Of a stretch of DNA of 64,000 nt, positions 38,902 through 45,608 are shown piece by piece. The position numbers were made by a program, and so were the translations under genes. The DNA is taken from contig JAGYJZ010000005.1 of NCBI GenBank assembly GCA_018401875.1, forward strand, positions 1 through 64,000. Reading direction: 5' to 3'. Under the pieces are notes generated by a model. It was not told the origin of the DNA. It made no database searches and saw nothing but the letters and a program-made list of their open reading frames with translations. Every line of letters begins with the position of its first letter. The first letter of the stretch is position 1. The DNA is from Salibacteraceae bacterium. GTDB taxonomy: Bacteria > Bacteroidota > Bacteroidia > Flavobacteriales_G > Salibacteraceae.

Positions 38902-40234
38902 TGGGTTTAGTTTTTACAGCATTTACAATAGGTTTGACAAAACGATCGATATCACCAGCGCCTAAAATCAACACTACATCTGCTGTTAACGATAATACAG
39001 CTATTACCAAGTCTGATTTTTGCACCAACTGCTTAGTTTTCAACGTGAGTTTATTCAAAAGATTCGCGCTTGAAACGCCCTCAATCGGTCGCTCTCGGGC
39101 GGGATAAATGGGCAATAAAATCACCTCATCAGCCTCAGATAAACTTTCTACAAATCCTTCCTCAAGATCGCGTGTTCGAGAAAATAAATGGGGCTGAAAA
39201 ACCACCGCAACGGTCTTTCCTGCATACAGCGTGCGTGCGGCATTGAGTGCCGCTTTGATTTCTTCGGGATGATGTGCGTAATCGTCAATCACCACCCGCG
39301 AAGGTGTTTCCAACACCCGTTCAAACCTTCGCTTTATTCCGCCAAAGGAATTAACTGACTTGACAATTTTATCTAAACCAACACCCAATTCTTGCGCTAC
39401 TGCGATGGCGGCAGTGGCGTTTTCTACATTGTGTTCACCGGCCAACTTCAGCTTGAAACCAGAATGATCATGCACTGAAAACTCGAATGCACCATCTACC
39501 ACTTTGACACTGCTATACTTGATTTCGGCCGAAGTACCTTTCCCGTAAATCTTCTTCTGAGGGTGATCGAATAACTCAGCTATGCTTTCGTGAACGATTA
39601 ATAATTCTGCTCGGCTTGCAAACGTTTGATAGTCCTTTTTCATCTCTTCGAACGTGCCGTAGATGTCTAAATGATCTGGATCTAAGCTAGTGATCACTGC
39701 GATATTGGGATGAAGTCGCAAGAAAGAACGGTCGTATTCATCTGCTTCAACTACTACATAATTTGGTTTCCGAGTGGTAATCAAGTTCGAATTATAATCC
39801 GTCAATACGCCACCAATAAAAGCCGCAATATCTCCTCGTGTTTCGTGCAGCAAATGTGCTGTAATTCCAGTGGTCGTGGTTTTTCCGTGGGTACCTGCAA
39901 TGGCGATGGTTTTGGTTTCTTTGGTGATCCATTCGAGCACCTCAGAGCGTTTAAACCACTGCTTGCCCGTGGCTTCAACATATCCAAACGCGATGTGATC
40001 AATAGGCACCGCGGGCGTGTAAATGAACAAATCGGCTTGATCGAGGCCTTCCGAACTTTCGTCAAATCGCACTTCTATTCCTTCCGCAATGAGTTGCTCG
40101 GTTAACGCGCTTGGTGTTTTATCGTATCCTGAAACCTTGGCACCTTTCCCTTTAAAATAGCGAGCCAAAGCACTCATGCCGATGCCCCCTATTCCGAGTA
40201 AATAAACCTTTTTTACATCCTTTAAATCTATCAT
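38891..40234 (-). CDS. murC: UDP-N-acetylmuramate--L-alanine ligase MurC
   Basis: ATP-dependent ligase adding L-Ala to UDP-MurNAc. LLGIGGIGMSALA (12-24) binds UDP. AGTHGKTTTTG (113-123) is the P-loop, and DEYDRSFLRLHP is the central motif. DDYAHHPEEIKAAL marks the C-terminal domain and identifies MurC rather than MurD or MurE. At 447 residues it is a standard length. It overlaps murG by 4 and ftsQ by 11 bases. Confidence 0.96.
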   Translation of the reverse strand: MIDLKDVKKVYLLGIGGIGMSALARYFKGKGAKVSGYDKTPSALTEQLIAEGIEVRFDESSEGLDQADLFIYTPAVPIDHIAFGYVEATGKQWFKRSEVLEWITKETKTIAIAGTHGKTTTTGITAHLLHETRGDIAAFIGGVLTDYNSNLITTRKPNYVVVEADEYDRSFLRLHPNIAVITSLDPDHLDIYGTFEEMKKDYQTFASRAELLIVHESIAELFDHPQKKIYGKGTSAEIKYSSVKVVDGAFEFSVHDHSGFKLKLAGEHNVENATAAIAVAQELGVGLDKIVKSVNSFGGIKRRFERVLETPSRVVIDDYAHHPEEIKAALNAARTLYAGKTVAVVFQPHLFSRTRDLEEGFVESLSEADEVILLPIYPARERPIEGVSSANLLNKLTLKTKQLVQKSDLVIAVLSLTADVVLILGAGDIDRFVKPIVNAVKTKPNVE

Positions 40235-41328
40235 TTGGCAAGGTTTATTACGTATTGAGCAATGTGTTGAGCAGCGTTGGGGAGGGCGTGTTTTCTAATA
40301 TTCAATGAGAGCGAGTTTCGTTTTGGATGATCGGCAACCAAGCGAATAATTTCTGGAATCAACAATTTGGAGACGTCACGATCAGCAATCATAAATGCAG
40401 CGTCTGTTTTCACGAGTGCTTCAGCATTCTTTGTTTGATGATCTTCAGCAGCAAAAGGAAACGGAACCAAAATGGTGGGCTTGCCGATGATGCATAGCTC
40501 ACTCACGGCAATTGCACCGGCACGAGATATCACAACATCTGCAGCAGCATATGCCGCGTCCATATCATGAATGAATTCGGTGATCACGAGCGGTTGTTGT
40601 TTTCTTTCTCCGAGGATTTGTGCAGCCTCCTCGCTAAACAATTTTCCTGTTTGCCATATGACCTGAATTCCGGCATCTAGAATGTGATCGATGCCCTCTT
40701 TTAAAGCGAGGTTGATTGAGCGCGCACCAAGACTTCCTCCCACTGCGAGGAGCACTGGTTTAGATGAATCAAAGCCGTAACTTTTCATTGCGAGTTCTCT
40801 TTTGCCCTCGATGTCGACCACATTTTTGCGCACTGGGTTTCCAGTTTTCTCGATTCGTTCTTTGGGAAAGAATTTTTCCATTCCATCATACGCTACACAC
40901 ACCTTGCTTACGGATGATGCAACCCAACGATTGGTAATTCCTGCAAACGAATTTTGTTCTTGAATAAGGGTTGGGATGTTCATCCATGTTGCCATGCGAA
41001 GCACTGGTCCGCTGGCAAAACCACCCACGCCTACCACCACATTCGGCTGAAAATTTTTAATAATTGATCGGGCTTTAAGCAAGCTTATGAGCAATTTGAA
41101 AGGAAACAAAAAATTGCTAATACTCAATTTACGTTGAATTCCCGTGATGTTCAGTCCGATGATTTTGTAGCCTGCTGCGGGCACTTTCTCCATTTCCATT
41201 TTACCGATGGCACCGACAAATAAAAATTCAGTTTCGGGTTGCAATTCTTTAATGGTATTGGCAATCGCAATAGCCGGAAATATATGTCCGCCAGTACCTC
41301 CTCCGCTGATGAGTATTTTAAGAGGCAT
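40231..41328 (-). CDS. murG: Lipid II synthase MurG
   Basis: Transfers GlcNAc from UDP-GlcNAc to lipid I on the inner face of the membrane. The 365-residue GT28 protein has GGGTGGHIFPAIAIA (9-23), VVGVGGFASGPVL, EQNSFAGITNRW and GGSLGARSIN. SRAGAIAVSEL is the donor-binding site. It overlaps ftsW by 11 bases and murC by 4. Confidence 0.96.
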   Translation of the reverse strand: MPLKILISGGGTGGHIFPAIAIANTIKELQPETEFLFVGAIGKMEMEKVPAAGYKIIGLNITGIQRKLSISNFLFPFKLLISLLKARSIIKNFQPNVVVGVGGFASGPVLRMATWMNIPTLIQEQNSFAGITNRWVASSVSKVCVAYDGMEKFFPKERIEKTGNPVRKNVVDIEGKRELAMKSYGFDSSKPVLLAVGGSLGARSINLALKEGIDHILDAGIQVIWQTGKLFSEEAAQILGERKQQPLVITEFIHDMDAAYAAADVVISRAGAIAVSELCIIGKPTILVPFPFAAEDHQTKNAEALVKTDAAFMIADRDVSKLLIPEIIRLVADHPKRNSLSLNIRKHALPNAAQHIAQYVINLAK

Positions 41329-42493
41329 GGGCCAAAGGTTTATTGGTGAAACTCATATCCTCTTTTTCAGCGCCAGCGCTCACGCTCAAAATTATGCCCA
41401 CCGCAAAGCAAGTAAACCATATAGATGTTCCTCCCATAGAGACCATGGGCAGCGACTGGCCTGTAACTGGAACCAAATTAACGGCCACGGCCATGTTTAT
41501 CATTGCTTGAAAGACCAGGCTGAATCCAATTCCGATTGACAGCAACGAACCGAAAGTGCGCGGACAATTCAGTCCAATTTTTATCGCGCGAAACAGAAGA
41601 ACCAGATAGAGGAGCAGGATAAAAACTCCTCCGATTAATCCATACTCTTCCAATACAATCGAATAAATAAAGTCGGAATACGGATGGGGAAGAAAATTTC
41701 GCTGCGTGCTTTTGCCGGGCATTTTACCTACAATTCCTCCTGTGGCAATGGCAATCTTTGATTGATCGCTTTGATAACTCTGATTTAAGCTCGACTCATT
41801 GGGAGAGACAAACGACTCAACACGGCTGATCCACGTATCCAAACGCCCGAACGAACCGGGCAATGCTTTTCCAGTCATGTAGACCATCCCGAGTGCAAAA
41901 ACGCCCGAAAGCATGAGCACACCCAAATGTTTTAACTGCACCCTACCAATAAACATCAGCACTAAGCAATTGACAAAGAGCATGGCTGCGGTAGATAAAT
42001 CGGCAGGAAGAATGAGACCGCAGACGATGAAAACAGGAATCAACAAAGGCAAGAAGCCCCGTTTAAAATCCTTGATCTCATCTTGGCGAACGGCTAAGAA
42101 GCGGGCCACAAACATGATCAGCGCCACCTTAGCTAAATCCGATGTTTGAAAGGTTTGGTTGATCACAGGAATGGTCAACCAACGATTTGCGCTGTTGATG
42201 CTCGTACCCATGAGTAAGGTTAAGAGAAGAAGAGGAATGCTCACATACAACGCCAATTGTGCAATCTTGGAATAGTAGGTATATTTTACGCGATGTGCCA
42301 GGTACATTAACCCAAGTCCGGCAACAAGAATAAAACCATGTCTAAACAAGTAGTAAAACGTATTGCCATCGTGGTGACGATAGGCCAAGGTGACAATACT
42401 ACTGTAAACCAACAACAAGCTCAGCACTGAAAGCAGCAGCATGATCAACCACACGGGTCGATCGCCTTTGATGTATTTGAGCAGTGATTCCAA
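41318..42493 (-). CDS. ftsW: Peptidoglycan glycosyltransferase FtsW
   Basis: SEDS-family septal polymerase with about ten membrane helices, 391 residues. SANRWLTIP, RQDEIKDFKRGF, ARAIKIGLNCPR-type loops and the periplasmic QSYQSDQSKIAIATGGIVGKMPGKS match FtsW. The end MVSMGGTSIWFTCFAVGIIL is typical. The start is unusual. A TTG at 42491-42493 directly follows the TAA of the upstream gene in the same frame, and the next ATG lies inside the first membrane helix. Confidence 0.93.
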   Translation of the reverse strand: MESLLKYIKGDRPVWLIMLLLSVLSLLLVYSSIVTLAYRHHDGNTFYYLFRHGFILVAGLGLMYLAHRVKYTYYSKIAQLALYVSIPLLLLTLLMGTSINSANRWLTIPVINQTFQTSDLAKVALIMFVARFLAVRQDEIKDFKRGFLPLLIPVFIVCGLILPADLSTAAMLFVNCLVLMFIGRVQLKHLGVLMLSGVFALGMVYMTGKALPGSFGRLDTWISRVESFVSPNESSLNQSYQSDQSKIAIATGGIVGKMPGKSTQRNFLPHPYSDFIYSIVLEEYGLIGGVFILLLYLVLLFRAIKIGLNCPRTFGSLLSIGIGFSLVFQAMINMAVAVNLVPVTGQSLPMVSMGGTSIWFTCFAVGIILSVSAGAEKEDMSFTNKPLAHAS

Positions 42494-43009
42494 TTATCGT
42501 AAGCGCATTTCTCTGACAGCCTTTCTAAATGCCTGTCCTTGTTCTTTGAAGTGAGTGAAATTTTCTAAATCACTAAACCCTGGTGAATAAAGCACCACGT
42601 CACCGCTATTCGCAATTTCTTTTGCCGCTATTGCAGCATCGAGGATTGAACCGCATTGAATGCATGGCTGCTTGACGTTTTGAAGTGATGCGCGCACTTT
42701 TTCGTGGTGTTGGCCCGTGATCACAAATGCCTTAATGTTGTTTGTGGCAACTTCATTCATAAGGTCATAATCTCGGTCGTCTGATGACGAGCCCATGATC
42801 CAAATCACCGATTGATCCATGCATTCGAGTGAATACCATGTTGAATTGAGGTCGGTGGCTTTGGCATCGTTCACGTATTCTACTCCATCCACAACATCTA
42901 CAAACTCGAGGCGGTGCTCGATCTCGCCAAGCCTTCGTATATTCTGTTTTTGTTGGCTTGCAAGTCGCTCGTTAACCTTTGCTAGAAGATGTGATGTGTG
43001 CGATTTCAT
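42494..43009 (-). CDS. Stand-alone MurD C-terminal domain (paralog of the adjacent MurD)
   Basis: This 171-residue protein corresponds only to the C-terminal Mur-ligase domain. It aligns by eye with the adjacent full MurD: EHRLEFVDVVDG, NDAKATDLNSTWYSLEC, VWIMGSS, VVLYSPGFSD and FKEQGQAFRKAVREM have direct counterparts. There is no P-loop or UDP-binding domain, so it cannot be a ligase alone. The MurD motif SPACASFD is changed to SPGFSDLEN and GGVDKGNDY to GSSSDDRDY, so substrate contacts have diverged, while the KAT block is kept. It sits 11 bases after murD and abuts ftsW in frame. Possibly a regulator or scaffold; I know no described function. Confidence 0.85.
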   Translation of the reverse strand: MKSHTSHLLAKVNERLASQQKQNIRRLGEIEHRLEFVDVVDGVEYVNDAKATDLNSTWYSLECMDQSVIWIMGSSSDDRDYDLMNEVATNNIKAFVITGQHHEKVRASLQNVKQPCIQCGSILDAAIAAKEIANSGDVVLYSPGFSDLENFTHFKEQGQAFRKAVREMRLR

Positions 43010-43020
43010 AGAATGAGTGA

Positions 43021-44361
43021 TTAAAGATTTCTAACTGCTTCTTTGAACTGACGACCGCGATCTTCGTAATCGTCAAACAAATCAAAACTGGCACACGCAG
43101 GACTCAACAACACCGCATCGCCTTTAACACCAGCCTTATACGCTTGGTAAACTGCATCGCGCATTGTTTCTACTTCGATTACATTCTCCACATAATCGCC
43201 AAATGCTGCGATCAGCTTTGCGTTATCTTTTCCGAGGCAAACAAGGGTTTTCACTTTTGCCTTTACCATGCCTTCAAGTTGCGTGTAATCGTTTCCTTTA
43301 TCAACACCTCCAGCGATCCAAACCACTGGTTTTGTCATGCTTTCGAGGGCATACCATGTCGAATTTACATTGGTAGCTTTCGAGTCGTTGATGAATGAAA
43401 TGCCGTACACATCATTCACGAGCTCAAGGCGGTGTTCGATATTCTGAAAATCAGACAAACACTCTCTAATAATATCTTTTCTTACCTCTAAGATTCTAGC
43501 TGCGATGCCAGAAGCCATCGAGTTGTAGAGGTTGTGTTTGCCCTGCAGGGCTAATTCTTGCATCGTCATAACTAATTGGTTTTTATTTGGGTTAATGGTT
43601 AATTCATTTTCGTTTGCGAAAGCCGCGAGGCCTTCATGATTCTGTTCTATTGAGAAAGGCGCTTTTGTTGCCTTCGTTTCTATTGTCTTCATCACTTCGC
43701 GCGTTACTGGATCATCTGCGTTGTAGATGAGCCAATCGCTGTCGGTTTGATTTTGTGTGATGCGCATTTTAGACTTGGCGTACTTCATCAAGTCATACTC
43801 GTAGCGATCTAAGTGATCTTCAGTGATGTTGAGCAGCATTGCGATGTCGCACTTAAAATCATACATGCCATCCAGCTGAAAACTGCTGATTTCGAGTACA
43901 ATCCAATCGTATTGATCGCCCTCAGCCACAATGGCTGCGAGACTTTTGCCGATGTTTCCACCGAGACCAACATTGATTCCTGCGCGCTGCAAAATGTGAT
44001 GCGTTAGCAATGTGGTTGTCGTTTTACCATTGCTTCCCGTGATGCCGATAAACTTTGCCTTGGAATAACGGCCTGCAAACTCGATTTCGCTAATCACTGG
44101 CACACCCTTCGCCCTTAACTGCACAACCAATGCTGCGCTATCAGGGATGCCAGGGCTTTTCACCACTTCATCCGCTTCTAAGATTCGATCGACCGAATGG
44201 CCTTTCTCTTCAAACAGAATGTCATTATTTAAAAGAACGTTCTTATACTTTTCCTTCAGTGCACCAGCGTCACTTACAAATACTTCCCAGCCTTTTTGCT
44301 TTGCCAACAGCGCTGCTCCTACTCCACTTTCTCCACCACCGAGCACTACCAGCTTTTTCAT
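43021..44361 (-). CDS. murD: UDP-N-acetylmuramoylalanine--D-glutamate ligase MurD
   Basis: Adds D-Glu to UDP-MurNAc-L-Ala. ATG 44361, overlapping the mraY stop by one base, gives a 446-residue protein starting [18 protein letters not shown] further in-frame upstream start lies inside mraY and is rejected. ITGSNGKTTTT (107-117) is the P-loop. NITEDHLDRY, NDSKATNVNSTWYALES and VLLSPACASFDLFDDYEDRG are MurD hallmarks. Its C-terminal domain is duplicated in the next gene. Confidence 0.95.
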   Translation of the reverse strand: MKKLVVLGGGESGVGAALLAKQKGWEVFVSDAGALKEKYKNVLLNNDILFEEKGHSVDRILEADEVVKSPGIPDSAALVVQLRAKGVPVISEIEFAGRYSKAKFIGITGSNGKTTTTLLTHHILQRAGINVGLGGNIGKSLAAIVAEGDQYDWIVLEISSFQLDGMYDFKCDIAMLLNITEDHLDRYEYDLMKYAKSKMRITQNQTDSDWLIYNADDPVTREVMKTIETKATKAPFSIEQNHEGLAAFANENELTINPNKNQLVMTMQELALQGKHNLYNSMASGIAARILEVRKDIIRECLSDFQNIEHRLELVNDVYGISFINDSKATNVNSTWYALESMTKPVVWIAGGVDKGNDYTQLEGMVKAKVKTLVCLGKDNAKLIAAFGDYVENVIEVETMRDAVYQAYKAGVKGDAVLLSPACASFDLFDDYEDRGRQFKEAVRNL

Positions 44362-45608
44362 TACCTCAGTTTTAAAGTGATAATGCTGATAACTGCAAGC
44401 ATTACCCCTACAATCCAAAAGCGCGATACGATCTTGCTTTCGTGCATTCCCTTCTTTTGGTAATGATGATGGAGCGGTGCCATGAGAAATATCCTTCTGC
44501 CTTCACCATACTTGTTTTTGGTGTATTTGAAATAAGCCACTTGCAAAACCACAGAAAGGTTTTCGACTAAAAACACTCCGCAAAAAATGGGGATAAGCAA
44601 TTCCTTTTTTATCGCCAGCGCAAACACAGCGATGATTCCACCAATGGCTAAACTTCCAGTATCGCCCATGAAAACTTGGGCTGGATAAGAGTTATACCAC
44701 AAGAAGCCGATGCACGCCCCACCAAACGCACCCATGAAAATCACCAACTCCTCAGAGTTTGGAATGAACATGATGTTGAGGTAGTCAGCGAAAATTAAGT
44801 TTGAAGACAAGTAGGCTAAAATGGCCAACGTGAGGCCGATGATCGCTGAAGTTCCTCCCGCCAATCCATCCAATCCATCAGTCATGTTGGCGCCATTTGA
44901 AACAGCGGTAATCACAAAAATCACGATGATGATGTAGATGATCCACGCGTATTTGGCGACAGATTCTCCGAGCCAATCGAGTAGCCAGCGGTAGTCAAAT
45001 TCATTGTTCTTAACAAAAGGAATAGTGGTTTTTGTAACTCCCGTTTCTACCCACTGAGGGCGATTTACGGTGTCGCCATTGCCATCAACTACAGTCTCGG
45101 TAATTACAACTCCGTTTTCATCGTATACCTTGTGCTTGATGGTGACATCACCATTGAAATAGAGAATTGCACCAGCGATGATTCCGAGGCCAACTTGACC
45201 TACCACTTTGAATTTGCCCGCCAGGCCTTTTTTGTCTTTTTTGAATACTTTGATGTAGTCATCTGTGAAACCTATTGCTCCGAGCCAAACGGTAGAAATG
45301 AGCATCAGCCATATGTATGTGTTGTGAAGTTTGGCAAAAAGAAGGGTAGGAATGATGATGGCCGAGAGAATGATTAAACCACCCATAGTTGGTGTGCCTT
45401 GCTTCTGCATCTGACCTTCGAGGCCGAGGTCGCGAACCGTTTCGCCCACCTGCAATTTTCTGAGGTAGTCAATGATGCGCTTTCCAAACAGCATGCTGAT
45501 GATGAGCGATGTAATTACGGCCATTGCTGTGCGAAACGTAATGTATTCAAACACTCCCGCTCCGGGCACGTCTAGTTCATTCAGGTATTGAAACAAATAA
45601 TAGAGCAT
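44361..45608 (-). CDS. mraY: Phospho-N-acetylmuramoyl-pentapeptide-transferase MraY
   Basis: Integral membrane enzyme that makes lipid I from UDP-MurNAc-pentapeptide and undecaprenyl phosphate. The 415-residue protein has about ten helices. [26 protein letters not shown] and the terminal [11 protein letters not shown] form the active site. An insertion of about 40 residues near residues 165-205 ([20 protein letters not shown]) is usual for Bacteroidota and lies in an extramembrane loop. It overlaps murE and murD by one base each. Confidence 0.96.

Follow-up and report, generated by a model that had tools for sequence, protein, structure and literature searches.

Mur ligases are usually viewed as soluble enzymes in which the third domain merely closes the active site. 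In E. coli MurD, the residues Lys348, Thr321, and Ser415 touch the D-Glu part of the ligands (PMC3527612). MurG binds MurD in Thermotoga maritima (PMC6420597). In M. tuberculosis, a fragment-complementation assay detected interactions of the Mur synthetases with FtsW, FtsQ, and FtsZ (PMC3605390), and in the plastid RNA polymerase a plant MurE makes contacts through its C-terminal domain (PMC12681378). The taxa listed for MurL comprise Gamma- and Alphaproteobacteria and actinobacteria, with no Bacteroidota among them (PMC8788868). Literature searches of open-access papers found no published description of a truncated or stand-alone MurD domain, in agreement with the initial annotation of the gene discussed here, and the passages on MurD and Bacteroidetes in a survey of dcw evolution mention no such domain. 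The fold family of the protein described below is known; its architecture and its two-fold occurrence are not.

The window, the whole stretch of 64,000 nucleotides from a Salibacteraceae bacterium, contains a dcw cluster in the order murE, mraY, murD, domain-3 gene, ftsW, murG, and murC, with ftsQ-, ftsA-, and ftsZ-like genes downstream. The gene of interest, annotated beforehand as a stand-alone MurD domain between murD and ftsW, coincides exactly with an open reading frame of 171 residues at 42494..43009 on the minus strand, starting with ATG; the plus strand of the same interval contains many stops. Full-length murD (43021..44361, minus strand; 446 residues), identified by the TIGR01087 profile and a motif check, has intact catalytic motifs and ends 11 bp ahead of the frame, and ftsW (41318..42493, minus strand), assigned from its reading frame and by locus comparison, lies directly downstream, bearing out the description of the gene as intact and tightly packed. 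The mraY gene (44361..45608, minus strand), directly upstream of murD, and murG (40231..41328, minus strand) were identified from sequence and gene order; gene starts are predicted throughout. We refer to this arrangement, a stand-alone MurD domain 3 between an intact murD and ftsW, as class A. A split murD or a frameshift artefact was rejected as its origin, because a full-length murD with intact motifs lies alongside.

The 171-residue protein matches the MurD profile TIGR01087 only at positions 291-440/441 (E 1.8e-32) and Pfam Mur_ligase_C (PF02875) with an E value of 5e-9 (37.5 bits; cut-off 28.4). It shares 32% identity with residues 281-446 of the adjoining MurD. A Pfam search gave no match to Mur_ligase_M (PF08245), which holds the P-loop GxxGKT ATP site of domain 2, and domain 1 with its UDP-MurNAc-L-Ala site is absent, as judged from the profile match confined to positions 291-440 and the one-domain predicted fold. 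The AlphaFold model (28 sequences in the alignment; pLDDT 83, pTM 0.76) begins with a long N-terminal helix and continues into the domain-3 fold, with a low-confidence join at residues 21-31 (pLDDT < 50). Comparison of the DSSP assignment with the MurD alignment equates the helix (model residues 2-29; 42921..43006, minus strand) with the one leading into MurD domain 3. The best Foldseek matches of the model are MurD structures (top 4buc, E 2e-9), aligned over ~140 residues of ~430-residue targets, indicating one domain only.

In the active-site region (MurD residues in E. coli numbering), the NDSKAT motif is kept as NDAKAT, and the GGVDKG and SPACASFD motifs read GSSSDD and SPGFSDLE, as had been noted when the gene was annotated. 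Two contacts to D-Glu are lost, with Asp77 (codon 42779..42781, minus strand) at the position of Lys348 and Asp147 (codon 42569..42571, minus strand) at that of Ser415. The retained residues include Asp48-Ala49-Lys50 (codons 42860..42868, minus strand; MurD Asp317-Ser318-Lys319), and Thr52 and Arg33 are equivalent to Thr321 and Arg302. The combination of a missing P-loop, a missing UDP-sugar domain, and a broken acceptor site means that the protein, judged from its sequence, is a domain-3-only, non-ligating one, as the annotation had concluded.

The gene is conserved well beyond the window, to an extent far exceeding chance. Within the genus it occurs in 12 of 13 genomes (the window's included), open and in place each time at 39-71% identity; the thirteenth, G010 (86% complete), has no domain-3 gene but no MurD match either. 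Five of the 18 genera of the order carry it, and among 346 genomes of the same Bacteroidota class many further families have a second MurD match. In the representatives fetched, this match adjoins murD and/or ftsW in a total of 19 GTDB-level families, all of one class (f1, f3, f6, f10, f11, f13, f14, f22, f26, f29, f31, f33, f38, f42, f43, f45, f47, f56, and f74). In close relatives the gene is not decayed, contrary to what the annotation had named as refuting a functional gene. The survey genomes are mostly MAGs; named carriers belong to Flavobacteriales and other Bacteroidota and include the MAGs SI074_bin77, UBA1993, UBA6057, NORP27, and NORP312. A profile scan of genome contigs returned mostly full-length MurD, with the stand-alone gene in 9 of 80 loci, all MAGs. 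Directly downstream of the stand-alone frame lies ftsW in 65 of 73 cases, the exceptions being contig ends or unlinked extra paralogues, and in relatives lacking the domain-3 gene murD joins ftsW directly (e.g. L027 and L028). Further arrangements were seen in single genomes or small groups. G323 has two tandem, strongly diverged domains between murD and ftsW (L165:1834-2376 and L165:2366-2941), and in G015 alone (L033:4514-5236) one or two small reading frames separate the domain from ftsW. Extra stand-alone MurD-domain genes lie outside dcw in L195, L196, L197, L198, and L203; those of L195-L197 adjoin an aldehyde-dehydrogenase-like gene, and a MerR-type regulator is nearby in L196 and L197.

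Rooting the domain-3 tree on two proteobacterial MurDs places 46 class A proteins in a single clade (support 99/95), although the inner order is uncertain with ~166 columns and long branches; two fragments and one MurD-like sequence (L067, L043, and L188) had been taken out of the alignment. This single clade indicates one old duplication followed by losses, or by spread of the cluster, rather than repeated local copying. Repeated duplication of the host MurD was rejected for class A on the same grounds, with class A proteins grouping together and not with their neighbouring MurDs. Pairwise dN/dS is mostly 0.02-0.13, with some pairs saturated, and somewhat above that of the neighbouring MurD domain 3. 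A recent duplicate or pseudogene was likewise rejected, given 12 of 13 genus genomes with an open frame, the old clade, and dN/dS values not near 1.

Residues were tallied over 73 class A or unlinked stand-alone rows and 78 MurD rows. The most pronounced loss is that of Lys348, kept in 10% of stand-alone rows versus 97% of MurDs, followed by Gly345 (46% versus 100%), Arg302 (64% versus 100%), Lys319 (64% versus 98%), Ser415 (67% versus 100%), and Thr321 (68% versus 97-100% in neighbouring MurDs). Other positions are retained in the stand-alone rows, namely His301 (90%), Glu304 (97%), Asn316 (95%), Asp317 (87%), Ser410 and Pro411 (98 and 100%), Gly426 (97%), and Phe429 (94%). The neighbouring MurDs are intact, indicating that the catalytic residues of MurD are independent of the extra domain.

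The association of the domain with ftsW is independent of murD, as seen in genome G081 and in a second group of loci. The dcw cluster of G081 is split, with mraZ to murD (mraY included) on contig C1 and the stand-alone domain together with ftsW on contig C2. On the latter (L199:5493-7289) the pair is located among unrelated genes, beside an HPt-like and a ferritin-like gene. The second group, class B, has only domain 3 at the murD position of dcw, in the order mraY-D3-ftsW, and encodes proteins of ~180-220 residues. It was sampled in the order of G297 (60 families, one genome each) and occurs in 11 of the 60 families; most dcw clusters of the order have an ordinary MurD and no extra domain. 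All 20 loci fetched for family f73, which come from many genera, have the class B arrangement, counting one that a contig end truncates on the ftsW side. It recurs in ten further families of the order, with the mraY side truncated in one (L239). Class B dN/dS is 0.02-0.16, indicating purifying selection. The domain thus persists where its ligase of origin is gone. Positions 348-350, 414, and 423 are lost in both classes alike, and positions 301, 304, 316, 317, 410-411, 426, and 429 are kept in both; the residues common to the two classes may determine the fold rather than an interface.

Class B could have originated in two ways. We suggest that dcw MurD was trimmed in place; the alternative, which we consider rather unlikely, is that both classes descend from one ancestral gene and that class B lost the adjoining dcw murD. 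A single clade for both is not rejected by the AU test (p 0.285) and several changes are shared, e.g. 409 L to F and 414 A to P, but the free tree places class B (f73) in a clade of its own (100/99) outside class A (99/82), and in none of the 60 families of G297's order does a full dcw MurD occur together with a separate domain. The class B N-termini also keep the MurD stretch LALQGK..SMA just ahead of domain 3, as expected for trimming in place. Under either origin the domain outlives the ligase.

The ligation step in class B genomes appears to have an alternative route. In G297's order, 19 of the 60 genomes encode a MurL-type epimerase, detected by NF041275 hits below the Xanthomonadales cut-off of that profile. 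A dcw cluster with domain 3 only is present in 10 of 17 judgeable genomes with MurL and in 1 of 41 without (Fisher p 4e-6, which overstates the evidence because it ignores shared ancestry and the families are not independent). The epimerase is thus present in 10 of the 11 genomes with domain 3 only, and 8 of the 11 encode a full-length MurD-like ligase elsewhere; a contig end truncates this ligase in G461, and none was found in G457 or G424. In G424 (L248; 98% complete) the dcw domain-3 protein is very diverged, and neither MurL nor a full-length MurD-like ligase was detected. MurL and the MurD-like ligase form a single protein of 876 residues in G297, and they are neighbours in other genomes. 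Neighbouring or fused pairs in this order were recorded at L202:5764-8394 (minus strand), L233, L236, L238, L232, and L235, with MurL/MurD-like ligase proteins of ~885-1138 residues. The pairing with MurL suggests that the MurD-like ligase is MurD2. A full dcw MurD whose P-loop is intact persists in seven genomes with MurL, as an earlier stage would predict.

Retention of the domain after the rest of dcw MurD was lost suggests a second job in wall building. Both classes have lost catalytic and acceptor residues and retain the fold, which indicates that this job is probably protein docking. We tentatively favour, at somewhat less than an even chance, a non-catalytic docking or adaptor domain of a membrane-side peptidoglycan complex, this being a second job of MurD domain 3. 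Such a subunit would sit on the cytoplasmic face with FtsW as its most likely partner, or possibly MurG or MraY; the partner's identity we infer from genome context and from the interactions published for other bacteria. Of the roles proposed in the initial annotation, that of a scaffold with FtsW or MurG as partner fits best, on the analogy of those MurD-MurG and Mur-FtsW contacts. In bacteria without the extra gene, intact MurD alone would perform both ligation and docking. In class A the domain would have been duplicated once, long ago, and set free beside an intact MurD, whereas in class B a MurL/MurD2-type pathway would first have taken over ligation and dcw MurD would then have been cut back to domain 3, leaving only the second job at dcw. 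That the domain was freed twice independently in Bacteroidota, pointing to a general FtsW-side organising function of MurD domain 3 separable from ligation, is plausible but falls a little short of probable. Several observations temper the docking reading. The dcw gene order is conserved anyway, which makes adjacency to ftsW weak evidence for contact with FtsW; genome context in general bears on interaction indirectly. Most Bacteroidota manage without a separate domain. Mean column entropy of domain 3 is 0.98 in MurDs with a class A partner compared with 1.15 in those without, and thus shows no loosening, which a handing over of the job might predict. A search for interface positions, kept in class A, class B, and partnerless MurDs and relaxed in class A-partnered MurDs, gave only conservative or noisy positions.

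Regulation of MurD by mimicry, also proposed when the gene was annotated, would have the free domain compete with the third domain of MurD for the ATP-loaded middle domain and so lower ligation. Arg33, Asp48, and Lys50 (Arg302, Asp317, and Lys319) are invariant in the genus of the window while acceptor residues are lost, and class A is always near an intact murD. Across the 73 proteins, however, retention of Arg302 and of Lys319 is just 64%, the G081 domain stays with ftsW while murD is elsewhere, and class B retains domain 3 with no ligase in dcw, where the sole detected MurD-like ligase is distant or none was found. These observations weaken the proposal and we regard it as unlikely, although the class B domain could possibly regulate the second, MurD-like ligase. 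A ligand sensor, binding a nucleotide or a glutamate-like compound and reporting precursor supply to the divisome, is improbable. Conservation of the Asp317 equivalent (87% in class A, 100% in class B) and of Asn316 (97% in class A, 75% in class B) would suit it, but the P-loop and UDP-sugar sites belong to the missing domains, and the D-Glu contacts Lys348, Thr321, and Ser415 (PMC3527612) are degraded. The related suggestion that the protein binds peptidoglycan precursors for FtsW or MurG finds no support, with the UDP-sugar-binding domain 1 absent and the acceptor residues lost. A relic or operon filler, kept merely to couple ftsW translation to the upstream genes, or a pseudogene, would agree with the very close spacing of the genes (in most loci the gap to the ftsW frame is 0-14 bp, or the two overlap). 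This is highly improbable, since the protein is under strong purifying selection in class A and class B alike, fold residues are retained, G323 has a tandem duplication, and relatives without the domain (e.g. L027) have clean murD-ftsW junctions.

If the domain does act in docking, a protein of 170 residues offers a test of a long-standing question, namely how the Mur enzymes of the cytoplasm connect with the machinery in the membrane. Class B genomes provide a natural experiment, in which ligation and the extra job would lie on separate, separately deletable genes.

Compared with full-length MurD, the stand-alone domain has the same fold, sequence ancestry, and chromosomal place beside ftsW in dcw. 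It differs in lacking domains 1 and 2 with their UDP-sugar and ATP sites, in losing Lys348, Gly349, Asn350, and often Ser415, and in being a separate gene with its own start rather than the C terminus of a ligase. The MurD2/MurL pathway of Xanthomonas (PMC8788868) is matched in nearly all class B genomes by a MurL-type epimerase and a MurD-like ligase, separate or fused, which adds much of Bacteroidota to the range of the MurL-type route; no residual domain-3 gene is mentioned for that pathway, and the genome of the window is class A with an ordinary MurD. MurG as a scaffold for Mur ligases (PMC6420597) represents the kind of membrane-side complex proposed for the domain, but MurG is an enzyme with a scaffold role of its own, and no stand-alone MurD domain is described there. 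The plant plastid protein PAP11/MurE (PMC12681378) similarly uses a Mur-ligase C-terminal domain for protein contacts outside ligation, which are proposed contacts in our case. In PAP11 the whole of MurE is present, as part of an RNA-polymerase complex, whereas here domain 3 occurs alone in a bacterial division operon.
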